Shown here piece after piece: positions 3,001 through 64,000 of a stretch of DNA of 64,000 nucleotides (positions within the stretch are counted from its first letter, which is position 1; each line of letters opens with the position of its first letter). Below the pieces are notes generated by a model. It worked only from the letters and a program-made list of their open reading frames with translations. It searched no databases and was not told the origin of the DNA. The position numbers were made by a program, and so were the translations under genes. Source of the DNA: Tubulanus polymorphus (taxonomy: Eukaryota; Nemertea; Palaeonemertea; Tubulaniformes; Tubulanidae); NCBI RefSeq assembly GCF_964204645.1, contig NC_134030.1:8492278-8556277 (forward strand). Direction: 5' to 3'.

Positions 3001-6000
3001 TCCTACTTCTATATCTACAATCAGTTCACTTGAAAATTACACGTAATATGAAAATGCTATGCGTAAACATGTCGAAACATCGTGCCCCGTGTCTTGATAA
3101 AGTGCTTTTGCAAAACTTTATCAATCATATATATTACTATTAATCTTGTTTTCAATTTTTCTAATAGAATGCAGTATTTCTGGATATGATGAGCGCAGTT
3201 TGCGTGTGTGATGGAATGGCAATACCAGACAACCAGAATTACATCGCTAAACACCTTTTTAAAGATGATTATGTAAGTTCGAATCTGCCCAAGCTATAGC
3301 AAATACGAAAGCAAAACTGTATCTGTAAAGATTTGATACCTGGTACTTAAAGTTTGTTGAATTCTTTTATGGAATCTTTATGGATTCTTGGACTACGAGA
3401 AATGTATCACATGTTCTCAACTTAAAGATTGCCATTCATTTGTACGTTTAAGTAAAGTTTATCGATGTATGTACGAAATAGATATGTAAATATTGTTAAT
3501 CCTTTTTTGATCGCCAGGTCAACATTCTGAATCTGAGATGCGGCCAGGAACTCGGCCTTCCATACCAACCAGGTGATTTGTACATCCGTATACAAACTCA
3601 ATACGAACCACTGGATCAGTTCTGTGATGTAAGTTTTGTATACATATTCGATTATCATATTGTGTGAAGTTTGAACGCGAAAAATATCGAATTTTCCTAT
3701 CGAATTAGAATGACTCCCACGAAACACTAGAACTTCGCACGTCTCATCTTATTTTCATATTTTGATAATTTCAACACGAGTTTCGATATTTATTATGCGT
3801 AGTTTGCCATATTCCATCGGTAGTGAATTTTCTGTTCTGTATTTTTGTTATTTCTGTTGCAGAAAAACAGCGAAAAGTACAAACCGGAAGCAATGAACTA
3901 CCTACTACGTCAGTTAGATCTGATCGGAAAGTTAGCCTACGTGAGTGTAAAACAATATAACGGCATACGGGTATTATTGATCTACAGGAAACTCGCCAAT
4001 TTTGGCCGTGACCTTTGGTACTGAAGACAAGTAATAGGTCCATCTGAATGATAATATCTGCTACATTTTCAGGGTTGTAATCAATACGTGATCGACTTGG
4101 TCACCAACAAGCTTCAACTTCTTACGTGGAATAGAACCTGGACAGCAATTACACGCGAAACTCTACCGGATGACGTGCGGGCAATGTTCTGTAAACTTGT
4201 CATAGGTACGTGAAATATATACTTTTTGAGATAACTCAAACGGTAATAACTAGTATAGCAAATACTTTCAGATTTTTTGCTGCTATTCTTAGATATCCAT
4301 TATCTATTTTCAAGAAAATGATTCCAAATCGAATTACGCACTTTTTTGCGTAATTATGCTGATGGGTGATATCGGCAGTTTTGTGTTATTTTTGAAACGT
4401 CATCGATCGTCTATTGTTTGGCCATATATTCCATCAATTACGAAGACCTCATGCCGTGAAAATATGGGCTATCATTTTCCCATTACGTCCAAACAACCGA
4501 CGGCATTAGAAATCATTCACACCGCGTCCGATACAGCATTCCACTCCAATTTTCTTTGGATAAAAATATGCGAACAAGACATTGACGTTTACCTATCATT
4601 TCCTAGGTGAGCATGTCTAATATTACGGAACTCTGCTACAACACTCCGTCATTATACAAGAAACGTTTTCATTATCTGTACGGCATTGGGCCGATCGGAG
4701 TTGTCGGCACTTTTCTCAATATTGCCTGCGTCGCAATTTTCTATCGTTCGACGACCTCTTCGGCGTTTCTGACGCTGTTCGTTTTAGCCACGGCAGACAT
4801 CGGTGTATCAGTGTCGACGGTCTTCTACCACATAGGCGTGATTGCATCCAAGTACATATATTACGAACCCGAAATCGTGTATGAAACCAAATTTGACGAT
4901 GGGGCGTTTGCCATGTACGTTTTCGCTAATAACTCGATGCAGCTATTTTGGAGATGGCGAAATGTCGTTACACTTTTGGTATCATTCGATCGTTTTATTC
5001 ACGTTTACTGGCCTCTATCGGCTCGGCGATACTGGAAAATCAATCACTGTATTGTCTATTCCGTAACGTCGTTTCTTCTTTTTTGTGGATTTCACATTTT
5101 CTACGCTTTTTACGCTTTCGTGCGCATTCCAGTGACGAGTCCGTGTTATGGCAGACACGTATTGGACAGGAAATATCGAAAATTTAGGAGAGCAGATTTG
5201 ATATTTATTGTCAATATGATCCATCTTTATCTTCCATCAGCTGGTATTGTGACTTTTACATGTCTTTTAATCTATAAATTGATAACCTACACAAAATCAA
5301 ATGGAAAAGAAATAGGACACGCGCACGGAAAGAAATCCATCGATGTACAAAGCACTGTCATGATCGTTGGAGCCGCCATTTTGTTTATTTGTTGTAACTG
5401 TGGTCAAATAGCCATCGATCTCATCAATAGATTTCCGAACATTTTGGGGTCCGCTAAACCAGTGGATAAAGACGGTTGGCGAGTTTTCTGGACAGATATT
5501 TATCTGACCAATGAATACTCAAATGCCATCAATTCTGCCATAAATTTCATCGTGTATTTTATAGTAAGCCGAAGTTTCCGTAGCGAACTAAGCAAGTCGC
5601 TACATATATGCACGCCGAAATAGCGTCCTCACCGTGCGTCGATATTTCTACCAATTCAGTTATTCCGTACACTTAAAGTGAACTGTAGTTCTGTCCACAA
5701 AACTAAAACGATGAAAAAATTTCTCGAAGTAATTGTGTATCGTGTATATAAAAACTGTTGTTTATAAGTGCATGATGCATGTCGACGCTGTTCAGTACAT
5801 AATGAAAATAAAGAAAGGATAACTTTTTAGGTTGATCGTGTTATCATATGATAATCCCAAAACGAAATTTGCAAGGATGAAGTTTCTGGGCGCCGTGTTG
5901 CCAAAACAAATAAATGGAAATTCATGGAAAATTCATGCGATAGCGAGCATATAGAAAGCAAGATTACTTCAGCTCTCCATCAGAAAATATTAGAAAAATC

Positions 6001-20452: not shown

Positions 20453-20938
20453 GTGATGTAAACCACTTTGTGACGGTAAAGCACCTCATCCCGGAAAACG
20501 ACCGATATTGGTGCCCACATAATCTTATTTTATAGATATGTAATATAATGTACAGTGTACAAACAAACAGCGGTGTTATCATTTATGCGAAAAAAATGCG
20601 TATATCCATATTTTACTATAAAGATTTTATTTGCCGTTAAAAATTAACCTGTGAAGTATTGTTTGTCAAACATTTTTACTGAAGTTATTTTTTTCAGTTG
20701 CTATTTGTACAATAAACAGTATTATATCGAAAAAATTACCTGAATCTTTACGTCCATCGTTTTTGGCGCCAACATAATCATCACGGTAGTTATGGCGACT
20801 TCATGCATCCATCATTTCCTCATTATATCGTATTTTGTCCAAATCACCCTCAATTAAAGTTGTTACTTGCATCGCAGTCAATATCACCATTCACTCCCAC
20901 CAGCAGTTCACTGGAAGGCTTCATTTGGGAAAGTGAGG

Positions 20939-21937
20939 ATGTCTAATGTTACGGATATCTGCTTCAACACTCCATCAGTGTACAAGAAACGTTTCCATTA
21001 TCTGTACGGCATTGGGCCAATCGGAGTTGTCGGCACTTTTCTCAATATTGTCTGCGCCGTCGTTTTCTATGGTTCGATGTCCTCTTCAGCGTACCTGACG
21101 CTGTTCGTTTTGGCTGTGGCTGATATTGGTGTATCGATGTCGACGATTTGCTACCACATAGGCGTTATTGCATCAAAGTACATATATTATGAACCGGAAA
21201 TCGTGTATGAAACCAAATTTGACGATGGGGCGTTTGCTATGTTCGTTTTTGCCAACAGTTCTTTACAGCTATTTTGGAGATGGCGAAATGTCGTTACACT
21301 TTTGGTATCATTCGATCGATTTATTCACGTTTACTGGCCTCTATCGGCTCGGCGATACTGGAGAATCAAACACTGTATTGTATATTCCGTGGTCACATTT
21401 CTAATGTTTGTCGTGTTTCACGTTGTGTATGCCTATTATACGTTCGCACGAGAACCGGTTACAAGTCCGTGTTATGGAAAACACGTACTGGAAAGAAAAT
21501 ATCGAATATTTAGCAGATCTAGAGCAAATTTGATATTCGCTGTTAATATGATCCATCTTTACCTTCCATCAGCTGGTATCGTAATTTTTACGTGTCTTTT
21601 AATTCATAAATTGATGTCCTATTCAAAATCACAAGAAAAAGAAATAGGACACGCGCACGGGAAGAAATCCATCGATATACAAAGCACTGTCATGATCGTT
21701 GGAGCCGCCATTTTGTTTATTTGTTGCAATTGCGGTCAAATGGCTATCGATCTCATATACAGTTTCCCCGATATGCTGGGATCTGCTAAACCAGTGGGTA
21801 AAGACAGTTGGCGAGTTTTCTGGACAGATATTTATCTGACCAATGAATACTCAAATGCCATCAATTCTGCCATAAACTTCATCGTGTATGTTATGGTAAG
21901 CAGACGTTTCCGTAGCGAACTGAGAAAGTTACTGTGA
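20939..21937 (+). CDS. GPCR-B: single-exon class A GPCR, tandem paralogue
   Basis: Intact 332-aa receptor just downstream of the channel gene on the same strand. The start is the ATG of MSNVTDIC, which matches the GPCR-A start; the longer frame to the left opens only with TTG. Same signature as GPCR-A: N-terminal sequon, GTFLN in TM1, AVADIG in TM2, FDRF after TM3, SPCYG in ECL2, CCNCGQ in TM6, NSAINFIVY in TM7. Many synonymous bases are shared with GPCR-C, which shows recent duplication. The cytoplasmic tail is very short (RSELRKLL). Ligand not predictable. Confidence 0.9.
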   Translation: MSNVTDICFNTPSVYKKRFHYLYGIGPIGVVGTFLNIVCAVVFYGSMSSSAYLTLFVLAVADIGVSMSTICYHIGVIASKYIYYEPEIVYETKFDDGAFAMFVFANSSLQLFWRWRNVVTLLVSFDRFIHVYWPLSARRYWRIKHCIVYSVVTFLMFVVFHVVYAYYTFAREPVTSPCYGKHVLERKYRIFSRSRANLIFAVNMIHLYLPSAGIVIFTCLLIHKLMSYSKSQEKEIGHAHGKKSIDIQSTVMIVGAAILFICCNCGQMAIDLIYSFPDMLGSAKPVGKDSWRVFWTDIYLTNEYSNAINSAINFIVYVMVSRRFRSELRKLL

Positions 21938-22935: not shown

Positions 22936-23596
22936 GAAAATATAGTCCCAATGCTTTGGGGGCTGCAGTACCCCTTGGTAAATTTCTCTCCGTATTATAA
23001 ACTTCCAGTTTTTCACTGCTACATTTCAAAGACAAGGTACATTTTCGAATATAAGAGATGATCAAGCAGTGCCTATCAACAAACAGAATGCACGAAAAAC
23101 AGACCAGTTTTTCAAATATTTCTCGGGGACGACCGGAAGAGCACCCCTTCTTTAAAATCCTGGATCCGCCCTTGTAAACAAATTGACGGCAAAGCACCTC
23201 ATTCCGTAAAACGAACAATAAAGCTTCCCATGCCATGTAAGGAGATATTTGATATAACGTACAGTATACAAACAAACAGTGGTGATATTATTGAATATGA
23301 ATATGAACTCAGCCTGCATTGGCAAGATGTGTGATGATGATGTAACATAAATGTACATATATAAGCTTATATATTCTTTGTTTCTATAAATGCTATTAAT
23401 CGTCTATTGTTTTTTTTTAGCACCAACGTAATCATCGTGGTAAGTATCCTGGTGACTTCATGCATCAATCATTTCCCCATTATATCGTATTATGTCCAAA
23501 TCACCTCCAATTAAAGGTGTTATTTGCATCGCAGTCAATATCACCATTCACTCCCACCAGCAGTTCACTGAAAGGCTTCATTTTGGGAAAGTTAGG

Positions 23597-24589
23597 ATGT
23601 CTAATGTTACGGATATCTGCTTCAACACTCCATCAGTGTACAAGAAACGTTTCCATTATCTGTACGGCATTGGGCCAATCGGAGTTGTCGGCACTTTTCT
23701 CAATATTGTCTGCGCCGTAGTTTTCTATGGTTCGATGTCCTCTTCAGCGTACCTGACGCTGTTCGTTTTGGCTGTGGCTGATATTGGTGTATCGATGTCG
23801 ACGATTTTCTACCACATAGGCGTTATTGCATCAAAGTACATATATTATGAACCGGAAATTGTATATGAAACCCAATTTGACGATGGGGCGTTTGCCATGT
23901 TCGTTTTTGCCAACAGTTCTTTACAGCTATTTTGGAGATGGCGAAATGTCGTTACACTTTTGGTATCATTCGATCGTTTTATTCACGTTTACTGGCCTCT
24001 ATCAGCTCGGCGATACTGGAAAATCAAACACTGTATTGTATATTCCGTGGTCTCATTTCTAATGTTTGTCGTGTTTCACGTTGTGTATGCCTATAACACG
24101 TTCGCACGAAAGCCGGTTACAAGTCCGTGTTATGGAAAACACGTACTGGAAAGAAAATATCGAGTATTTAGCAAATATAGAGCAAATTTGATATTCGTTG
24201 TTAATATGATCCATCTTTACCTTCCATCAGCTGGTATCGTAATTTTTACGTGCCTTTTAATTCACAAATTGATTTCCTACTCAAAATCACTAGAAAAAGA
24301 AATAGGACACGCGCACGGAAAGAAATCCATCGATGTACAAAGCACTGTCATGATCGTTGGAGCCGCCATCTTGTTTATTTGTTGCAATTCTGTTCAAATG
24401 GTTATCGATGTTATTTATAGTTTCCCCGATATACTGGGATCTGCGAAACCAGTGGACGAAGACGGTTGGCGAGATTTCGGGACAGATTTTTATTTGACCA
24501 ATGAATACTCAAATGCCATCAATTCTGCCATAAACTTCATCGTGTATGTTATGGTAAGCAGACGTTTCCGTTGCGAACTGAGAATATAA
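23597..24589 (+). CDS. GPCR-C: single-exon class A GPCR, tandem paralogue
   Basis: Intact 330-aa receptor, nearly identical to GPCR-B over most of its length. The start is placed at MSNVTDIC by homology. An in-frame ATG 105 bases upstream (23492) exists, but the matching codon in GPCR-B is not ATG. TM3 ends FDRF, TM7 is NSAINFIVY. TM6 differs: CCNSVQMVIDVI instead of CCNCGQMAIDLI. The C-terminus ends RCELRI, shorter by two residues. The third extracellular region differs most (EDGWRDFGTDFY), which would fit ligand divergence. Confidence 0.9.
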   Translation: MSNVTDICFNTPSVYKKRFHYLYGIGPIGVVGTFLNIVCAVVFYGSMSSSAYLTLFVLAVADIGVSMSTIFYHIGVIASKYIYYEPEIVYETQFDDGAFAMFVFANSSLQLFWRWRNVVTLLVSFDRFIHVYWPLSARRYWKIKHCIVYSVVSFLMFVVFHVVYAYNTFARKPVTSPCYGKHVLERKYRVFSKYRANLIFVVNMIHLYLPSAGIVIFTCLLIHKLISYSKSLEKEIGHAHGKKSIDVQSTVMIVGAAILFICCNSVQMVIDVIYSFPDILGSAKPVDEDGWRDFGTDFYLTNEYSNAINSAINFIVYVMVSRRFRCELRI

Positions 24590-25248: not shown

Positions 25249-26113
25249 AAAGAAGTTATTTTTGAACTGTTAACTTCACACGCATTCATCTACAATATGA
25301 CCCGTTTTGATTTCTATCGTTCTTCGTTATAACAGCTTATACTGTAAAGCCATGAGAAGCCATATCTGACAGATAAAGAATCTACCAGCTTTGAATAAAA
25401 CAGCACCGTACCGTGTAAAATCTGTTAGGAGCGTCCTCGTGGAACCTCTAATCACTGAGTAAAAACAATTTATGGCAATAATATAAATAATTTTGGTATT
25501 AGATATTGAGGGGAGGGGGGTAAATCTCGGCAAATCTCGTCATTTCGTGGGAATTAAGATGATAATTAGAATCATGAATACCGGTAAGCTGACTATCGGA
25601 ATAAATTGGCTGAATTTTCGCATCGTCTATCAAAACCGGGATAAACTATTGCAGGAAGTTACAACATTTGACAACTCTGCTCATAAACACAGCTTGTTAT
25701 GATTAGTTCTGGCTTGTGACGTAAGTAATAGGTGAGAGGCGTCAACATTTCGTCAGAAAATGCGTGTGAGGAGCGCTGAGCAGCATCATGCCGGTGGAAG
25801 TCCTTGCATTTCCGCAGCCATCGTTTAAGGTAGGTAAAGCACCGTACAAAAAGAGCACATGTTTAAAGGTTTTCCCAATATACCTTGCCTTTTCAAGCAC
25901 TCGAAAATATTAAGAAATATCGATTGCATGGAACAGATTTTCTAATCAGGGTTATGCGGGTCTTGCCGTCCATGTTGCCGCAAGGTTTTCAGCATAGTTC
26001 GTGATCTATATGTTTTATAAATTCATTGTCGATCTTTAATTAGCATTTCAGATTTCCAATTTAACTGCTCGTGAAAAATATATACAACACCTTTTCGACA
26101 ACTTATCTATAAA

Positions 26114-27028
26114 ATGCTGAATGAAACGAACAGCAAATTCAACTGGAATATAAACGTGTTCTACCCGTGTCGAGATGTTATGCTATTCGTGGTCATATTC
26201 GTCGGTAATTGCTTAGTACTAGTGTCAATTGCCAAAAACAAGCAGCTGCAGATTCAAACTAATTTCATGCTTGGTAGCTTATCGTGTGCTGACATTCTAG
26301 TCGGCTTCTGTTCACTGTTAAACTTCTTCAAATGGATGTACTTTCGAGAGAAGTTCGCGAATTCTAATATCTATATTGCGCTTATGGTACTGTATATGAC
26401 TTCGATGATGTCATCCGTGTTCCATTTGTTGTCTATTTCCGTTGATCGTTACGCGTGTGCGAAATGGCCTTTAATCTATCGCGTCAAACGGTCGGCCTTG
26501 CATTCCGTCATTCTTCTAACCGCAGCTTGGTTATTAGGAATAGCCTCGGCGTTACCGGCCATTTTCTTCAATAACCTACCGATAATGTCCTCGCTGGAAT
26601 ATGCGTTCAACCAAACGCATTTGATGTCGTGTGGTATCGTGGTATTGATTTGTGAATTCTTCATCATAGTTTTCTACGCTCTTGTCTGGTGGACGAACCG
26701 AACTAATTCTCGTCGAATAATGGATGTCGCCGTCTGCACGGTGGAATATATGAGACGGTGTAAAGAACTAAAAACCACGAAATTACTGCTGATAGTATCG
26801 ATAGTATTCATCGTCTGCTGGACGCCGATGCTTATAAGTGCAATTATGATCAAATTCACCAGTCGTAAATTCGAGGATTCATTTTATCGTGCTCGCAGTA
26901 TTTTCATAATGATGGCGGCAGCTAATTCGTTTATGAATCCAATCTTATATTGCCTAATAAATTCTGCATTTAGGGCGGGGTTTAGGCGTATTTTCCGGTT
27001 ACGTATATGCATTAGCACTGTCGAATAA
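26114..27028 (+). CDS. GPCR-D: single-exon class A GPCR, unrelated to A-C
   Basis: Intact 304-aa receptor. The N-terminal NET is a glycosylation sequon. TM1 FVGNCLVL (N1.50), TM2 SCADILV (D2.50), TM3 end VDRYACAKWPL (true DRY), TM6 CWTPML (CWxP), TM7 NPILYC (NPxxY). No Cys is seen at the start of TM3, and the second extracellular loop is short. Short loops and loss of the TM3 Cys recall the melanocortin/adenosine/lysolipid side of class A, but the ligand cannot be named. An in-frame stop (26072-26074) upstream supports the chosen ATG. Confidence 0.88.
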   Translation: MLNETNSKFNWNINVFYPCRDVMLFVVIFVGNCLVLVSIAKNKQLQIQTNFMLGSLSCADILVGFCSLLNFFKWMYFREKFANSNIYIALMVLYMTSMMSSVFHLLSISVDRYACAKWPLIYRVKRSALHSVILLTAAWLLGIASALPAIFFNNLPIMSSLEYAFNQTHLMSCGIVVLICEFFIIVFYALVWWTNRTNSRRIMDVAVCTVEYMRRCKELKTTKLLLIVSIVFIVCWTPMLISAIMIKFTSRKFEDSFYRARSIFIMMAAANSFMNPILYCLINSAFRAGFRRIFRLRICISTVE

Positions 27029-28534: not shown

Positions 28535-28700
28535 GGCCGTTTGGCTATGGGCTTGGACTGGTTGTTGATAATCTCGCGAGAATGGCGCTAAATATGAACT
28601 GCGAATAAATTCAAAATATCACGGAAATACCTTGTGTTTATATTGTTTGCTTATCCGCTATAAAGTTCCGATAAGAAATGTGGTCATGAACAGCTGTGAA
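28535..28700. mobile_element. Partial copy of the hAT-like foldback arm
   Basis: Closely matches the left arm of the element at 28733-29509 (GGGCTTGG, ATAATCTCGCGAGAATGGCG, then AAATATCACGGAAATACC), in the same direction, but with a different end. It looks like an older fragment or solo arm beside the complete element. Confidence 0.6.
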
Positions 28701-28732
28701 TAAATTCTAGGCCTAATTAGTAGGGAGACACA

Positions 28733-29509
28733 CACAGGGGTTTGGCGATGGGCTTGGATTTTATTTCCGGGTTTTTGATGATCTCGCGAGAATGGCGCTA
28801 CATATGAACTGCGAATAAATTCAAAATATCACGGAAATACCTTGTGTTTATATCGTTGATTTATCCGCTATAAAATTTCGACAAACAATTGGTCGTTAAG
28901 AATCATTATCAGACGGTCGACACGCTACTATATATAATAACAAGGGATGAAACGCCTTCAGAGTTGTGCCAGCCAGAAAGTTGGGACAGTCACGTGACAT
29001 TCTGATGATGTCATCACATTTAAAACTTTAACATGAAAAGTTAACATATTCACAGACCGATATCAATTGTCAGATTATGATTCATATGAAATTAATAACT
29101 AATAAAGAATAAATTATGATCAAATATATAATTCATAGAAAAAAATGCATTTGAATGTAAGTTATTCTCAAATATTTTTCGTATCATAGTTTCCATCTTA
29201 GATGCTTCGGGTTTGCATTCAGTCAAATAAGAAGCGCGACTGTCACGTGACTGTCCCAACTTTCTGGCTGGCACGAATTGAACTGCGTTTCATCCCTTGT
29301 GATTTTATATAGTAAAGCGTGACGACTGTCTGATGATGATCCTTAACGACAAATTGTTTATCGGAACTTTATAGCGGATAAATAAACAGTATAAACACAA
29401 GGTATTTCTATGATATTTTGAATTTATTTGCAGTTCATATTTAGCGCCATTCTCACGAGATTATCAACAACCCGGAAATAAAATCCAAGCCCATCGCCAA
29501 ACCCCTGTG
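28733..29509. mobile_element. hAT-like non-autonomous foldback element with 8-bp target duplications
   Basis: 777 bp. The ends CACAGGGGTTTGGCGATGGG and its reverse complement belong to inverted arms of about 265 bp each (28733-29000 and 29240-29509). The flanks GAGACACA at 28725-28732 and 29510-29517 are a perfect 8-bp repeat, the hallmark target duplication of the hAT superfamily. CAGGGG at or near the tip also fits hAT. The inner ~240 bp is AT-rich with no transposase, so it depends on an element elsewhere. Confidence 0.85.
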
Positions 29510-30343: not shown

Positions 30344-33300
30344 ATGGCAGATTTGGGCGCATTTGGACTCGCGTTTCTCGCATTGGTGATACACGATGTA
30401 GCTCCGTTTGTAATCTCGTCGCATAATCATAGCAAGCATTTGATATCGGCCGGAGATCGCGAGGGCGACGAACGTTTGAGTTGGGGTGTACAAATTGTCA
30501 ACCACGAACGATTCACCGACAGCGGCGCCGCCGTAGCAGCGAAGATAGCCGAGAATTTGGATTTGAAATTTCGCGGAAAAATTGCCGATCTGCCCGGGGT
30601 GTTTCGTTTATCGCATCGGTCTCATACTGACGAAAAACAAACGGGCTTTTCAGCGGGAAGTTTACCGGATTTCGTCGAGTTACGAGATTCGATACAAGAT
30701 CGGTTTCAGAGCGATGACAACGTAGAATGGTTCACGCAGTTTATTTGGCTGAAACGAGTCGGTCGAACGTTGCCAGCTGCCGTACGCTTCAACGATCCGC
30801 AATTCAAGAATCAGTGGCATCTCGTAAGTGTCACGCTTAAGAGACGGTTCTCATAGTTGAGAACGAACGAGAACATTTTGGTTCCGAGGAAAAAAGTGTT
30901 CTCTAAGGGAGGTGTTGATTTGTGGAGCGAATTCACTAAGAGATGTTTTGATTTATCTTTGAAATGCTAAAGATGTTGATTAGACATTAAAATGATTTCA
31001 TTGCCGGCCAATAAATTCATTAATTTGGCCTATAGAGTAAATCTTAAAAGCATAATCGTCTTTCCTTCGTTATGCACATTTGCTAGTTTGATTAATCAAT
31101 GATGTGCCCTCGCTTCAATGTAGTACGTACCGATATATATGACATGTATGTAATGTTATAGATTACTGTATACCGTTGATTGTCAAAATTGAGCCAGTTG
31201 AATACCACTTTCAAACTTTTGGTTTTGTTGGTAACAGGTAATAATCCTCGGGGTAAATGTTCCCCTTCTAGATTTAAAAAGTTTCAAGTTCGGTGTGGTG
31301 TTGGTCACAATATTCACCTCGGATAATCTATGACTTTTATTAGCACGCTACACACATCAAAAATGATATTATTGTAGTGTTGAAAATGGAGAAATATAGT
31401 TTAAGACTAATAATAAAATATCTACGGATATTTGTATTCATTGATATTGTTGTAAAAAGCGTTATCCAGTTATTATCAGAATTTTACACTAGTTTGATAG
31501 AATTTGAAGGCATTTTTACCTATGGGGATATTTACCGGGTGAGATTATTACCTACAATGCGTTTTGTTTTGTGGTTTGAGCCTATGGCGACACATTTGCA
31601 TATGAATATTGCAAGTGACATGTGTTAGAAACAGCATCACAACACTTGCCATACAAACAGAAATTTGATACGTAAGCTGAGTGTCAGCAAAACAATACAT
31701 AGGTTTTCCCTGCTGTCAGCGAAAGAAAGTAACCGGTATGGTAATTATTGTGACTGTCAAACTATGCTAGCGTGATATGGTATCTGTTTACCCGCATTGA
31801 CTGTCTAAATATCACAAGCGTAATACAGGGTTTCTGTTTACACGCATTGAAGCAATATTATCGGCATCAATAGAAAATCTTACACCACGTCTACATTTAG
31901 TGAGAAAAGACTAGGAATAAGAATTAATATTTGCTGACCTTTGGCTTTATAAAAGCTATAACAGCAGCTATTGTTTGATAACAGCTCTTCGCTGAAGGCT
32001 ACTTCCCCCTCGGAACGGTGTTTATATTGCTTCATTGACAAAATTATTTGATCATAAATAGTCTAGCCGTGATTTGCTGAAGAAACTGAAACCTTATGAA
32101 AAACAACTGATTTGTCGTAAGCCAATTATAAATGCTATTTCAGTACAATGGTAAAAATCGTAGATATGATATCAATGTGACTGGTGTATGGATGACGTAC
32201 AACATTACAGGGCGTGGAGTCACTGTCTGTATTGTGGACGATGGTAAGGTCCTTTATTTATAGCTTGCCCTATCAGGTTTTAGATCAGTCCGCAAAAAAT
32301 GTTTTTGTTTTTCTCCGCTCGAATAAAAGATCATAAGGAGAATAGATATCTATGGCTGACATTTTCGTTTAGAATTTCAATCAACTTAATGATTGTCCGA
32401 TTGATTTACTATGACAAGGACAGTTCTCTGCTTTTATATTCTTACATTTGATCTCAAATTCTCTGCGCAATTTCATTTTCAATCTTATTTTGAGTCACTT
32501 TATTCATACAAAGTGGTCGGTGGTAGAGGGTGGGCTGGCCCTTTCACGGAAAATCGCAGAGTCTTGCAGACTGGTCATGTGCGGGTAGTACAATACAGCA
32601 CGCTTCAAACTGTTGACAGGCTACTTCATGACTGGACATCAACTGACTGTCTATGTTTTTGGGGATTTTTTAGGTGTAGAATGGAGGAACCCGGATCTGG
32701 TGTCAAGATACGAGCCCGATGGGAGTTGGGATTTGAATGACGATGATCCTGATCCATCACCTCACCCCGCAAAAAGTAAGTAGTAAAGTTACTGGGTAGT
32801 CGAGCTAAAATAACTTTTGCTGTAAGTGTTTTATTAGTTGATTGATGGGTTTGTTAGTTGATTGATTTATCATTGATTGGTTTGTTAGTTGATTGATTTA
32901 TCATCGATTGATTGGTTTGTTAGTTGATTGATTTATCATCGATTGGTTTCATATTTTATTGATTGGTTTGATAGTTGATTGATTTTATGATTGATGGTAT
33001 TGTCAGTACATTGTCACTGATTGATGATGGCTTCATTAGGTTTGTTAAGCATTAGGGACTTATCGATTGATTGGATTAATTCATTGGAGCTATCATTGAT
33101 GAATAGGTTTGTCATTCGATTGGCCGATAATCCATTTGCGTAGTATTCAATATTTTAAAGCACATTGGTTTCCAGATCAGAATTCACACGGAACAAGGTG
33201 CGCTGGTGAAATAGTCGCTGCCCCCAATAATAACTTCTGCGGTGTGGGCGTGGCATATGACGCGCGGATGTCTGCCTTGCGCATGATTGATGGCCGCATT

Positions 33301-36300
33301 TCTGATTACTTGGAAGCCGAAGGTTTCCTGTTTAAACTCGATATTAATGACATTTCCAGCAATAGGTATCAATATATTCCTACATCCATACCCAAAAACT
33401 TACCTTCGTCGTCAATCATAGGCAGAAAGCTGTTTCTATGAGCAATATTCACTTCGGTAGACCTAGTAATTTGGTGCGTGGTAGACTCTAGTAAATGCCT
33501 CATACACCTTGCACCTTTTGCCTGTAACCATTCTTAAAAAGAACATACCCAGTTATAAAATGGTCGATGGTCGTCACGGTAATTTGATCGTTGATTGGTC
33601 ATCTTTAGCACAAAAAATGCTATTTACAGCAATACCGGAGAACAAATATTCTCTTTAAGATATCGCTGTTAGTTCATCAGAATTGTAATTTGGATAACTG
33701 GTATATGATATTATTGAAGCTGTTTCTCAATTCGACAACTTTGAAATCAACAAAGTGCTTATCATCAGTTGAAACCAAAATAGCTTTATTCCTGACAATT
33801 GTGAATGATGGGTGTAGCTAATATCTTTTCATTTATGTCCGGTGTATTTTTAGAAACCAATCAACACGGTACCCGGTGTGCTGGGGAGGTGGTAGCCACG
33901 GCCAACAATTCATTCTGCGGTGTTGGTGTCGCTTACGAAGCGAAAGTTTCGGGAATTCGATTGTTAGATGGGCCAATCACGGACAGCCTCGAGGCCGAGG
34001 CATTTTACCATAAACTAGATATAAATTTCATTGAAAATCTGAGGTAAAATTTTAGTAGGGATTTATTGAAATGTGGGAAGAAAAAGCGAATGATGGATTT
34101 GAATTCGAAATTATTAGTCTACCATGGTTTTTGCATCAGGCCTATATATGTGATTGTTTTTAGCTGGGGTCCAAGCGATGATGGAAAGACAATAGACGCT
34201 CCACATGTTCTAGCTCAGGTACGTGTCAATAGTACCATTCACTCAAACATTACAAGGCTACACACGCGTGTATACCATCTATAATGGTCTGTATCCTAAA
34301 TATAAATTATCATTATCCTCCCGTATCGATTCAGAAAGCACTGCAAAGAGGAGTAACGCTTGGTCGCGGCGGGTATGGTACTGTTTACGTCATACCAGGT
34401 GGTAATGGAGGAATGCATAAAGACAATTGTAACTACGATGGCTACGCTAATTCCATATATACTGTCACCATCAGTACGTACAACATATTAGCAAATCTCA
34501 TGCTGATATCAATCTGCTACCTGCATAGCTAGACTGTTATTCACTTTCAAATGACATTGCCTTGGGTCCAGACAAGAGACCTGATTAAGTCTTGATGACA
34601 ATTTTTTGTAAAGATGGCAAAGTACAGACCGCAGATTGATATCCATATCAAACATTTAAAGGCCTGTTGCTACTTTGATATTATAAATAAAATGGTTCAT
34701 TCAAACCCGACAGATGCAGTTGATGAACACGGAAGAACGCCATTTTATGCCGAACTCTGCGCGGCGAGTCTTGCCTCAACTTTCAGCGGTGGAAACAACA
34801 TGTTTTTACGCAGAATCGTAAGTTTGACTCGACTCAATGGACTACTACGATACGCAATCCAGATCTGCTAATTCTATATAGAGAATCCCGCGCTAATATA
34901 ACGAAAGATGCAGTCCGTAAGCCAATAATTTATTCATTCGACGTTTTAACTATAGCCCAATAGTCATCTTAAGGAATACTCAGGGGTCATTCATTTATTA
35001 CATACGCATTAGGGGAGGGGTCAGTGCAATTGCGTACTGTAATGCTTAATGTATATGAAAAAATGGTTGATTTTGCATACAGAGGGGGAGGGGGATTCAA
35101 ATTTTATGCGTACGTAATAAATGAATGATCCATCAGGAATATTTCTGTATTCCTTGAGGTGACTATTAGGTGATAGTCAAAACGTCAAATGATTAGCTTT
35201 AAGGAAAACCTTTCGGACTTTCGTTTCATTTTCCTCTTTCATTATGTTAGCGTGTAATTCTCCATAAACTGCCAATTCTTCATTTATTTTCAAATTGATA
35301 TGATTTTCAGACGACGACGGATTGGGATTTCGATGGGGGAAATGGCTGTACAAACAAGATGTCGGGAACGAGCGCCTCTACGCCGATAGCTGCCGGCATT
35401 ATTGCGTTGATGTTGGAGGCGAAACCCTGTTTGTCGTATCGCGACGTTAAATATATCATTATAATGTCCGCCAAAAAAGTAAGCGGTACACTGAGTATTT
35501 AAGCATATCTGCTGTGCACTGGGTATTTTAGAGGGGAGAGGATGTGCACCACGTCATTAACAAATCAGCCTGGACTTAGACTGGCTTGAATTGAATTCAA
35601 TTATCAATATATTAATTTTCCAGTGATTGATCATTAATATTATATTTCATTTATATAATATCATTAATTGTTGGCAGTATTAAGCAATTATTGTACGTTC
35701 ACCTGTTTTTCAAGGCATTGATAAACTTAAATTAAGTTTTCTTGTTTCAAAACGTTCGCCCAGCGGCTTGGAAGTGGTATAGAGATGACTCGCGTTCATG
35801 TTGTAGGTAGACGATATTGATGGACAGTGGATCACTAACGAAGCCGGCCTCCATCATAACCATTTCATCGGGTTCGGTATCATTGACGCGTTTCGCGCGG
35901 TTTCTGTGACTAAAATCTGGACGCCGGTCCCGATGCAAGTTCGGTATTCTCATCAAACGGTGACAGTCGAGAAAATGCTTCCGAAATATCCGATGGAATA
36001 CGGCGGTACCGTTGTCGGTAAGTTTCAATGAATTTAATCACAAGGTTCATTTCATCTTGAAATCAAATGAATACCGTGTATGTTTTGTAATAAAAAGCAT
36101 TTTGTAGATGGGGATTTGTAGCATAGATTTTAATTTTATTTAAACATTGAATTGAAAAGGATTAACTTAATACAGTAGAACCTTTTTCAGCTTTTTTCAA
36201 TCGCGATTTTCATTTAATTCAGATGCAATATTTGGTCCATTTATCCTGGAACCACGTAAACAATTATTCACAATTCGGATTTTACTTAATTCGAAATAAT

Positions 36301-39085
36301 CTGGACAGTCCCTGGTCATCCGAATTAAGCGAGTTCTGCTGTATTTTTTCTTTCAAACTGAGGATCAGGGAATTCTTATTATAATTCATCAAATATTGAT
36401 ATATCTTGTTTCAGTACGTGAAGAAGATTTAATCGGTATCAGTTTGTTGGAGTACGTTCAGGTCACGGTGACGGTGAAAACTTATCGTCGCGGTAACCTG
36501 GTTATTTATCTCAAATGCCCTAGCGGAACAAAATCGATACTTACCTCCGTCCGACCCAAAGATAAGTAAGTTGAAATGAGAAGCGTTCAATTCGCTTAAG
36601 TCACTTGAGTACCTCAAGGCTTTTTCGTGCTATCAAGATAATTGACCCCTATATTTTCTTAAATTTTAATTATTTAATATTTGGATTAATATAATAACAG
36701 CACCTAAATACTAACAACTACCTGTTTGCATAATTCCTATGAATTATGCAAAGCAAACTAGTGCACTTACTTAGTTTAGCTAATTAATGCATTTGAGACG
36801 TTTGGATTACTCTGGGTTCAGTTCCTAAAAGTTTTGGTTTAGTTATTACTTGTCAATTCATGTTTGAGGTCAACAATTCGAAATACAACTGTTTTAAGCT
36901 TAAACATTTCTATCAAACTTGACCGTGATTGCAAGTTATTAATAATTCTTAAGTTTCCTTTGATTTTGAAAATGAACTACAATCTTGACAAGGGATCGAA
37001 AAATGGGGGTCATTCGTCTTGCATTGCACTACAGCCATGACAAACTGTCCAAAAACAATGCAATGACAATGTTCATAGAAGCTTTAGATAACTTAGGCAT
37101 GTTATTGAAATGTGATGATTCCACTTTTGTCGCAGTTAGTCAGAAGATTGTAATTAGCTTATATATATTCTTTTCAAGGACTGAATTTGGTCTAACTGGT
37201 TGGACGATGACGTCTGCTCGTTGTTGGGGAGAACGACCTTACGGCGAATATACAATAACAATCATTGATAATGGTAATATTTATCATTCATTTTATGAGC
37301 TTTTTTCTCATAGATCTCCATCTATTATTGTAATTCATTGTTGAAATTTTGTTTCGATATTCAGATGAGGAGATAGATTATCAATATGGCCAAGTTTCAT
37401 CGTGGCAGCTACATCTTACCGGAACGCCATTAACTTACGAACAATTTATGGAACGAAGAAGGTAAATGCCATGATTATTAGATGAAAGACTATGAATTAT
37501 ATGCAATAGTGGTAGGGTGGGGTCGATTTTTGAATTGGATTTGGCTGTTAATGACAGCCTTCTCATTTCCGATGACGTCAATATTCAATTTACCTGGTAA
37601 TAATGATGTCTCTTTGAGAAACTGGCCCCTAATTAAGGTTAAGCTATTTATCTAAAAAAAGATAAATCTCTTTTAACACTCTCTCTCTTTGTTTAGGCTG
37701 GTAATGGATACTATAGCTAATGGCTTTGTGAATCAATCCAAAGAAACTCCATGTTGGTCAGCTCCAGCCGGACCTGGGCTATACGAATTGGAGCCAATGT
37801 CAGGAAGATTGCTCAAGGTATTTTACATAATGTGGGCTATCATTGTGAAAAAATTCAACGCGCATGATCACAATGTTTATAGGCAGCCAAAGTCAGATAT
37901 GTCAAGAGAGTGCAATATTGTCACTTCTCTGCGGCCGGGAATAACTTGTACAATGAGGACTTAACATGACCGTGGCAATCAAGGATTCCCTTTGGATCCA
38001 CCGGGTTTGCGAGTGTACATTCAGACAACACCCGGATTTCTTCTCAGATTTAAACAAAATCTATCCGCAATTTTGCAAATTTTAGGAATGATGAATGTAT
38101 TTGATCAATCCAATAAAGAGACACGATTTGCCCAATGTTTCATGTGGGAGGCTGTAACTCTAAATGAAAGCTACTTGAAAATGAACTAAAGTTTGATTGT
38201 GCTGTCCTCACCGGGTCTTTATTGCACATTACAATATTTTTCACTTCTGTTTATATGACCGAAGCCTCAAATCCTTTCCAACCACCAATTGCCTATTAAC
38301 TCATGAGCTGCGTATTTCAGATGTTGGCATTCACCTGCATATTCTGCCTCATTATGCTCTGGTATGAAATGATGGAGTATATGTGCTGCTACGCGGAAGA
38401 AAAACAGGAGTCGTCGCGTCAAATGCGTCGCGTGCGTCGTGCCCAGAAGATGGGTCTGATCGACGTTCACCAGGCTCCCGAGTCATCGCCTTCAACGACG
38501 ATTAATGAACAAACTCGATTGTTGGCACCTGCTGGCGCCGAAGAAAATATCGCGATGTCGGCGATCGATTCGAATCGGCATCGAGACGGCGGCGCGGATC
38601 ATATCAGCGAACGAAATCAGTTGCTCGGTGATGAGGGCACTAGTCACGAGTCTATAGATGATGGTTTCGTAGACTTCAATAGTTCGAATGAATTATGCAA
38701 TGATAATTGCTACAGTGGTGTACGATCAGAGAGCAAAAATGTAAATTATATTTCTACGTGTACTTCTAGTCTTTCACAAACTTCAACTGCTGCTGAAACA
38801 AATCAACAAATTTGTCTTCCTTTAAACATCGATAATTCATGTAATGAGGCGTCAAGTTCTTCCAATTCGTTTGTCAACGATTCTCAGGACGATCGTCAAG
38901 GTAGTCTAGTCAAAGATGGGCGGGGAAATCTTGTTTCTAATATTCCCTCGGCTCAAAATAACGATAATGACTCAGTGATCGAAAACATTCTTAATATGCC
39001 AGATAATGAAGGCTTAGTGGGCGTAGACCTTCTTTACGGTTTATCGAAAGAGGAAATTGAATTGAACATGAATCTTGCCAAATGA
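30344..39085 (+). CDS. PCSK7: PCSK7-type proprotein convertase (membrane-anchored kexin-like protease)
   Basis: Coding exons: 30344-30823, 32144-32243, 32674-32775, then either 33176-33365 or 33854-34043, 34164-34218, 34335-34473, 34714-34817, 35311-35478, 35807-36017, 36415-36565, 37179-37273, 37365-37461, 37697-37817, 38321-39085; phases fit throughout. Exon 1 holds the signal peptide and prodomain with RVGR before [12 protein letters not shown]. The catalytic triad is visible: Asp in CIVDDG, His in HGTRCAGE, Ser in SGTSAS, with oxyanion Asn in GGNGG. The P domain ([13 protein letters not shown]) follows. One membrane segment ([12 protein letters not shown]) and a Cys-rich, then ~240-residue Ser/Asn-rich acidic cytosolic tail point to PCSK7. 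The enzyme cleaves proproteins at basic sites in the TGN and at the surface. Confidence 0.93.
32823..33010. repeat. Degenerate GATT/GGTTTGTTAGTTGATTGATT minisatellite
   Basis: A run of imperfect copies of a unit around TTAGTTGATTGATTTATCAT, interspersed with GATTGGTTTG, lies in the intron just before exon 4a. Expanded tetranucleotide origin is likely. Confidence 0.75.
33176..33365 (+). other. Convertase exon 4a (catalytic His, variant a)
   Basis: 190 nt, enters in phase 1 and leaves in phase 2. Encodes [10 protein letters not shown] with the active-site His, then [20 protein letters not shown] and [11 protein letters not shown]. Good acceptor (TTTCCAG) and donor (AG|GTATC). It has the same length and phases as exon 4b and differs from it at roughly 23 of 62 residues. 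Confidence 0.85.
33854..34043 (+). other. Convertase exon 4b (catalytic His, variant b)
   Basis: 190 nt, same phases as exon 4a. Encodes [10 protein letters not shown] with the active-site His, then [20 protein letters not shown] and [11 protein letters not shown], closer to the usual convertase sequence. Because 190 is not a multiple of three, joining both copies would shift the frame, so a working protein can contain only one. No decay is seen in either. Confidence 0.87.
34983..35132. mobile_element. MITE with GGGTCATTCATTTATTAC ends
   Basis: 150-bp element in a convertase intron. The left GGGGTCATTCATTTATTACA and the right GTAATAAATGAATGATCC are inverted repeats, both flanked by TCA. A three-base TNA duplication suggests the PIF/Harbinger group. 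Confidence 0.65.
36173..36341. mobile_element. pogo/Tc1-like MITE in a convertase intron
   Basis: Ends CAGTAGAACC and, on the other strand, CAGCAGAACTCGCTTAATTCGG, both flanked by TA. 169 bp, no ORF. Related by its ends to 786-961, 39368-39499 and 60005-60153. Confidence 0.6.
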
Positions 39086-62265: not shown

Positions 62266-64000
62266 TCAGTCTTTTAATAATTTCGTCCAATTTCTAATCT
62301 TTCGCTGAGCGTTGGCTGCGGCCAGCCTGGTCGCACGCGTTTTCGGTTGATTTGTATCGGTAATCGTACCGGTATCCGATGAATCATCGACAGATTTCGC
62401 GTTAATTTCCAGCGGATATAATTTCGATACGGGTCGGTTCGTACGGCCGGTACTTGTTCGAATATCCGCTGATCGCACAAGTCCATCGGCGCTAACGTCT
62501 AATTTCTCGACGAGTGCCATACGCCAGTGTATTCGCTTCTTGTTGTCCTCGTGCACTAAAACAATGTCTCCAGTTTTTATTTTGTTTTCGAGTTTCCCGT
62601 TGAGTCTCGCACGTTCTCTGAGCGCTATCAAGTATTCACGGCTCCAACGTCGTTTGAACGAACTCAAAAGTTCTCGCAACGTTTGATTACGGCGTTGAAT
62701 ATCGGTATACGAAACGTTAAAGTCCTGATCATTTAGATCAATGTCCTCATACGGCAACAGAGTTAATTGGCGACCGCATAACAGTTGTGACGGAGATAAC
62801 GGAAGAGGCTCGTCTTCCGTACTATACACATACGTGAGAGGTCGATCGTTGATCGTAGCCTCAATTTCACACAAGAGAGTTCGTAATTCATCGTCCGTGA
62901 CGATGCTTCTACCGAGAATCTTTCTGAGGCATTCTTTCGTTACGCCTATCATCCTTTCCCAGAATCCCCCGAACATTCATTCCCTGCCCGAACCAAGGGG
63001 CTCGTTTGGGAATGAATGTCCATCTGATTCGATTGTTCGCCATATATCTCGCGACGATCGGCGAATTGACGATTTCTTCTATCTCTACGCAAGATTTTAG
63101 AAAGTATGACCCGTTGTCACTGATCAGTTCATGCGGTAACGATCTACGCGAAACGAATCTCTGGAATGCTCGAATAAACGCGGCAGGTGTCATATTAATG
63201 ACTGATTCGAGATGGACTGCTCGCGTGGTGGCGCATGTAAACAGACAGATGTAACGTTTATGGCGCTTGTCAGACGTGCCTCTGACCCAAATTTCGCCGG
63301 AATAATCTACTCCGGTAACAGTAAAGGGCGGAGCATCCGTAACGCGCGAAACTTGAAGTGGTGGTGGTATAGGTCTACAGTAGGCGGAGCCTCGTACTAT
63401 AGCGCACGTAACACATTTCCTGAGAACTGATTTTACGACTTGTCTAATTTTCGGTATCCAGTATCTTTGCCTGATAGCAGTAACAGTCCCGCCGATTCTT
63501 AAATGTTTACACCTCCTGTGGTGAAACAACACGATCAAACGCGTAATATGGTGATCTGGTAAAAGAATGGGAAATTTGGCATCGTAGGGTAAAGACGAAT
63601 TTTGCACACGACTGCCGCATCGAATAAGTCCCCTGTCATCGATAAAGATTTTCAGTTGTTTGATTAGGTTACCGCGTTTGAGTTTCTGGTCTGTCAATTG
63701 ATTCAATTCAGATATAAAGTATGTTTTCTGTAAGTCCATGACCCATTTGTTTTCTGCTGTTTTTATCTCATCGGCGGTGAGTTCCCCGCTAACCCGATCG
63801 GCTGGATTCCTCAGATTATGTAAATATCTGAGGAAATGAGCGGTAACACGCACGAGTTCGGTCAACGATCCATATTTTTCCGGATCAATGATCTTTAAGA
63901 TACCCGCTTTTTCTAACTTTTCGTGTTGTATCGACATGGTAGTCTCGTCGACAGATTCATCAGTTTTAATTTCGTTATCGGCTTGAAATCGCGAGACTGG
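62266..64000 (-). pseudogene. BEL/Pao LTR retrotransposon pol, integrase end, frameshifted, partial at right edge
   Basis: The minus-strand frame enters from the right edge and runs to 62909. It contains a Zn-binding HHCC segment (HHRRCKHLRIGG, CVTCAIVRG), the catalytic Asp regions VTGVDYSG and ELISDNGSYF, and RAPWFG. The conserved continuation beginning GFWERMIG is in another frame (62976-62266), with INDRPLTYVYS and the BEL/Pao-type C-terminal domain. The shift is caused by about 19 extra bases between the two parts, including TTCATTCCCTG at 62976-62986. The third catalytic residue (Glu) therefore lies beyond the break. This copy is inactive as it stands. Confidence 0.85.

Follow-up and report, generated by a model that had tools for sequence, protein, structure and literature searches.

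The convertase gene and its tandem exon pair

We analyzed a 64,000-nt stretch of the Tubulanus polymorphus genome (GCF_964204645.1, NC_134030.1:8,492,278-8,556,277, forward strand), hereafter the window; all coordinates below are positions within it unless a locus is named. On the plus strand, a gene that probably encodes a proprotein convertase of the PC7 type spans positions 30344-39085, and the exon carrying its catalytic histidine is present in two tandem versions, 4a and 4b. A frame of 14 exons (exons 1-3, one exon 4, and exons 5-14; Table 1) reads through 925 residues with a stop codon at its end only, whichever version of exon 4 is taken. A Pfam domain scan of the 4a form of the protein placed the S8 pro-domain, Peptidase_S8, and P_proprotein in that order, all three above the cut-off, and found no further Pfam family, including any cysteine-rich one. 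By alignment with furin, the catalytic positions are Asp192, His232, the oxyanion Asn333, and Ser411. A hydropathy peak at residues 666-687, C-terminal of the P domain, is indicative of one transmembrane-like stretch. A transmembrane segment past the P domain, without cysteine-rich repeats, is a mark of the PC7 type.

The catalytic domain is 59% identical to that of human PC7, compared to 46% for furin; the human PC7 reference is provisional, so the PC7 identities given here and below, as well as the closer relationship to PC7, are conditional on that reference. All seven other convertase-like loci of this genome that were compared (L001-L007) score higher with furin than with the same PC7 reference, and no PC7 chain is present among the 60 of 73 matches listed by the search that provided the furin alignment. 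The predicted protein resembles PC7 (PCSK7) in its succession of pro-domain, S8 catalytic domain, P domain, and a single transmembrane-like stretch, but differs from it in having two alternative His exons and a cytoplasmic tail of ~240 residues, which is apparently longer than that of human PC7. With furin (PCSK3), it has the same triad and a substrate-pocket map that can be aligned, whereas the Pfam result for cysteine-rich families sets the two apart, and both Asp191 and Glu230 of furin are replaced (see below).

Exons 4a and 4b are both 190 nt long and equal in phase, with AG before and GT after each, at the coordinates and borders that an earlier sequence-only reading of the window had proposed. 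The block HGTRCAGE, which includes the catalytic histidine, is identical in the two exons, and the two forms share the exons that carry the catalytic Asp (exon 2) and Ser (exon 8), both as that reading had it; its count of about 23 differing residues out of 62 is corrected here to 24 of 63, the split first codon included. Exon 3 joins 4a or 4b in frame, and each of these joins exon 5 in frame. Use of both exons does break the frame, producing a stop at 34011 inside 4b, and when both are skipped, translation stops within exon 5, at 34193. Nonsense-mediated decay (NMD) removes messages with early stops; since both stops lie many junctions ahead of the last junction of the gene, decay of transcripts with both exons or neither is expected. 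An AG located 15 nt upstream of the 4a acceptor (33161-33175) would add five in-frame codons if it were used as an alternative acceptor.

Table 1. Exons of the convertase gene and the introns around the tandem pair (window positions)
Feature	Position	Strand	Content
Exon 1	30344-30823	+	Start codon, signal-peptide-like stretch (hydrophobic residues 6-24), pro-domain (Pfam S8_pro-domain, residues 55-141)
Exon 2	32144-32243	+	Catalytic Asp, residue 192, VDDG
Exon 3	32674-32775	+	Upstream of the pair, common to both forms
Intron 3	32776-33175	+	400 nt; AT-rich tandem repeat at ~32840-32984
Exon 4a	33176-33365	+	His block, residues 228-290, DGRISDY version
Intron 4a-4b	33366-33853	+	488 nt
Exon 4b	33854-34043	+	His block, DGPITDS version
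Intron 5 (4b to exon 5)	34044-34163	+	120 nt
Exon 5	34164-34218	+	SWGPSDDGK block, furin 253 onward; downstream of the pair, common to both forms
Exon 6	34335-34473	+	Oxyanion Asn, residue 333, GGNGG
Exon 7	34714-34817	+	Spliced frame
Exon 8	35311-35478	+	Catalytic Ser, residue 411, SGTSA
Exon 9	35807-36017	+	Spliced frame
Exon 10	36415-36565	+	P domain begins (Pfam residues 529-616)
Exon 11	37179-37273	+	P domain
Exon 12	37365-37461	+	P domain ends
Exon 13	37697-37817	+	Spliced frame
Exon 14	38321-39085	+	Bulk of the transmembrane-like stretch, long cytoplasmic tail, stop codon

Divergence, constraint, and genomic setting

The two exons are identical at 114 of 190 bases (76 differ) and at 39 of 63 residues, and the differences fall 20, 14, and 42 times at codon positions 1, 2, and 3, respectively. 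Synonymous divergence is saturated (pS of 0.86), compared to a nonsynonymous divergence (pN) of 0.27. As a neutral control, 5,000 copies of each exon were simulated with the observed number of changes, all of them placed in one lineage. None of the 10,000 copies reached 39 identical residues (the maximum was 29 starting from 4a and 30 from 4b), and 86% and 89% of the copies, respectively, contained a stop codon. Similarity by chance was rejected, given that the residue identity of 4a and 4b exceeds that of every simulated copy. It should be noted that, because all simulated changes occurred in one lineage, the simulation alone is no proof of constraint in each lineage. Better evidence of constraint on each copy comes from 22 columns without variation across furin and five of the other convertase loci in this genome: 4a keeps 19 of these columns and 4b keeps 20.

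Compared with furin, 4a is identical at 31/63 residues, 4b at 32/63, and the shared catalytic exons at 122/265, and this closeness implies that neither copy looks relaxed; the corresponding values for the PC7 reference are 35/63, 37/63, and 166/275, the two exons being slightly lower. Neither exon looks to have been released from selection. A broken second exon was rejected as well: neither copy contains a stop, and the motif and key residues are kept in both. The distance between the two exons (39/63) is about the same as that of each copy to human PC7 (36 and 38 of 64), which suggests that the pair is of considerable age, with the reservation that exons may evolve faster once duplicated. The flanks are not the similar ones of a recent duplication, since no match between the surrounding introns exceeds 15 nt, and that reading was rejected.

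When the whole genome was searched with 4b plus its continuation into exon 5, 14 matches were listed; the two exons themselves scored 132.6 and 83.6 bits, and the remaining matches 48.2 bits or lower. No second PC7-type gene was found among the 42 matches of the full protein, both searches scoring best candidates only. Within the 7-10 kb examined at each of L001-L007, one His-block equivalent was found per locus, and the His itself is replaced in two of the seven; L008, which came from a subtilase match and was weakly matched in the locus comparison, was left out of this count. A scan of viral contigs yielded 22 pattern matches, but no relative was encoded by any of them. Alignment with furin showed that a convertase-like gene at ~3694-6523 of L007 (G000:C6:1839000-1847500) has all four catalytic positions replaced (Asp-Asp of the Asp motif by Ala-Asn, His by Lys, the oxyanion Asn by Asp, and Ser by Ala), and it is likely to be a pseudoprotease. 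In another such gene, at ~2303-7079 of L006 (G000:C4:6841000-6849500), His is aligned with Thr, the oxyanion Asn with Lys, and Ser with Gly; its Asp exon was not located in the region read.

Elsewhere in the window, the region at 28560-29509, upstream of the convertase gene, has the appearance of a small mobile element with inverted repeats: besides a direct repeat of 120 nt (90%), it contains inverted repeats measuring 210 nt (28733-28942 with 29300-29509, 89%), 123 nt, and 77 nt. Three similar single-piece long open frames (4607-5623, 20858-21937, and 23456-24589) have weak 7tm_1 matches, that of 4607-5623 being below the Pfam cut-off, and we read them as a local family of receptors; another 7tm_1 frame, unlike these, is present at 26075-27028. 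At 62266-64000, on the minus strand, a frame that by eye is integrase-like is followed by a DUF5641 match, and we take it to be probably the end of a retroelement.

Splice sites and substrate pockets

The donors of 4a and 4b (scores of 1.37 and 2.81) are the lowest two of the 14 donors of the gene in a position weight matrix built from 12 introns only; the chance of this particular pair being the two lowest is ~1 in 91. Weak donors are often seen at alternative exons. A search for U1 listed 21 matches, 17 of which exceed the cut-off. The acceptor scores are 3.96 for 4a compared to 7.67 for 4b, with values below both at several further acceptors of the gene. Because 4a is weaker in both donor and acceptor, we predict that 4b is the default and that 4a is regulated.

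Steric exclusion, through a short intron or a distant branch point, was rejected, as 4a and 4b are separated by a 488-nt intron and the AG-free zone ahead of 4b is 34 nt. In these two features the pair contrasts with exons 4a/4b of OGDH, mutually exclusive exons that alter a property of one enzyme (PMC7969005), as the pair described here may also do. Pairing intronic elements, for which the sequence-only reading had suggested a search, did not emerge: the best duplexes of three intron pairs were matched by 10, 36, and 24 of 60 shuffles. Docking/selector pairing was thus rejected for want of a duplex beyond the shuffles, in a test that is weak from a single species. The 4a donor starts with GTATC and is U12-like, with 6/9 consensus bases, equal to 4b and exon 11. 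The best U12 branch-site matches ahead of 4a, 4b, and exon 5 are 5, 6, and 5 of 9, those of the other introns being 4-6, and no clear U12 branch site was found at these three acceptors; U12-type sites are thus without support, although they were not rejected outright. Regulated repression or activation, together with NMD, may be the remaining mode of exclusion, a suggestion that is unproved. On the sequence evidence, the exon pair has the architecture of mutually exclusive splicing: this part of the earlier claim stands with respect to the frames, the splice borders, the constraint on both copies, and the single locus, whereas the three textbook exclusion mechanisms are without support.

Each exon corresponds to furin 190-252 in the alignment. 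In published pocket assignments, Asp191 of furin belongs to S2, Asp233 to S5/S6, Glu230 to S6, and Glu236 to S4 (PMC11680514); the hydrophobic pocket of inhibitor complexes is lined by Met226, Leu227, Val231, Leu240, and Ala252 (PMC12703725), and P5 is contacted by Val231 and Glu236 (PMC7957917). Exons 4a and 4b differ at furin positions 191 (Gln/Thr), 226 (Met/Leu), 227 (Ile/Leu), 230 (Arg/Pro), and 252 (Asn/Leu), and are the same at positions 192, 194, 231, 233, 236, and 240. By homology to furin, the proposal that the differences adjoin the substrate cleft holds, although residues 236 and 233, the S4/S5 acids, are unchanged. Asn208 and Cys211, presumably the calcium-site and disulphide residues, are also the same in both exons; S1 (258, 306), Glu257, and Asp264 are encoded by shared exons, and 7 of the 24 differences fall at furin 239-252. 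Either form is expected to cleave after basic sites, and differences are possible at P2 and P5/P6.

Competing explanations and biological meaning

With a probability of about 0.83, we favor an old tandem duplication of the His exon in a single PC7-type gene, the copies of which would be spliced mutually exclusively, with the frame and NMD as a backstop, to give two PC7 proteases. Exon 3 would join 4a or 4b, and the chosen exon would join exon 5; transcripts with both or neither would meet an early stop and be removed by NMD, and exclusion would result from regulated splice-site choice. The products would be two membrane-anchored convertases of 925 residues each, with the pro-domain, the catalytic Asp, the oxyanion Asn, the Ser, the S1 pocket, the P domain, and the tail in common. 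Differences between the forms would lie within furin 190-252, affecting the His loop, the vicinity of the first calcium site, and portions of the S2 and S4-S6 walls, and their substrate preference may be changed, mainly beyond core basic P1/P4 recognition. The anatomy, the frames, the deep divergence, and the purifying constraint on both copies are direct observations.

Several points weigh against this explanation. The use of both exons is deduced from genomic DNA, the persistence of the pair from divergence alone, and the donor matrix and the pairing test have the limits given above; beyond these, the steric, U12, and pairing checks identified no other known exclusion mechanism at 4a/4b. With regard to function, the acidic residues 233 and 236 are common to both exons, so that any change in specificity may be small, and at position 230, the paralogues L001 and L005 likewise have Arg and L004 has Pro, so that this difference need not be a special adaptation. 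In an alternative reading, one exon only is used, the other being a silent duplicate that is intact by chance, or a rarely used or poison exon whose inclusion with its partner triggers decay; in its favor, both donors are weak, and double inclusion or double skipping creates an early stop. Conversely, synonymous sites are saturated while the protein is conserved and the motif columns are kept in both copies, and preservation of HGTRCAGE, the Cys, and the S4/S5 acids would serve no purpose in a poison exon. We regard the use of one exon only as quite improbable. An assembly artefact, in which haplotypes were mis-joined or paralogues set in tandem, is hardly credible: the locus was judged from the assembly alone, but 76/190 differing bases are far above the allelic level, the intron flanks of 4a and 4b, all lying between shared exons, are distinct for each, the surrounding introns share only the short matches noted above, and the genome matches include no second PC7-type locus.

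The remaining alternative is compatible with mutually exclusive splicing, and our estimate for it concerns the reading of function: both exons would be used with little effect on substrates, the swap altering trafficking, stability, the response to calcium or pH, or inhibitor binding instead. The equal S4/S5 acids, the location of S1 in shared exons, and the share of differences at furin 239-252 agree with it, whereas positions 191, 226, 227, 230, and 252, which in furin belong to S2, S6, or the hydrophobic pocket, all differ; we consider it rather unlikely. The fuller proposition, that one PC7 locus has long been used in an animal lineage to produce two proteases of different substrate reach through exchange of the His exon, is tentative, and we place it slightly below even odds.

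Mutually exclusive exon pairs are already well known. A convertase with a swapped His exon was not found in the open-access literature searched, in agreement with the sequence-only reading; most subscription journals were outside the scope of that search, and the absence is unproved. Convertases usually diversify through gene duplication; in the window gene, the active-site block appears to be exchanged by splicing, with the rest of the enzyme constant. The exon 5 pair of SNAP25 is likewise a duplicated exon with mutually exclusive splice variants, but the swapped exon is not an enzyme active site (PMC2581893), and serpins, a protease-related case, gain functional diversity from the alternative splicing of duplicated exons, with the variation in the inhibitor and not in the protease (PMC12758981). 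A crystal structure of PC7 is not yet available, according to a 2025 paper (PMC12703725). If the proposed exchange is true, the gene would represent a splice-controlled switch of protease specificity inside a single zymogen scaffold, and would provide a natural domain-swap experiment on the role of the S2 and S4-S6 walls in PC7.
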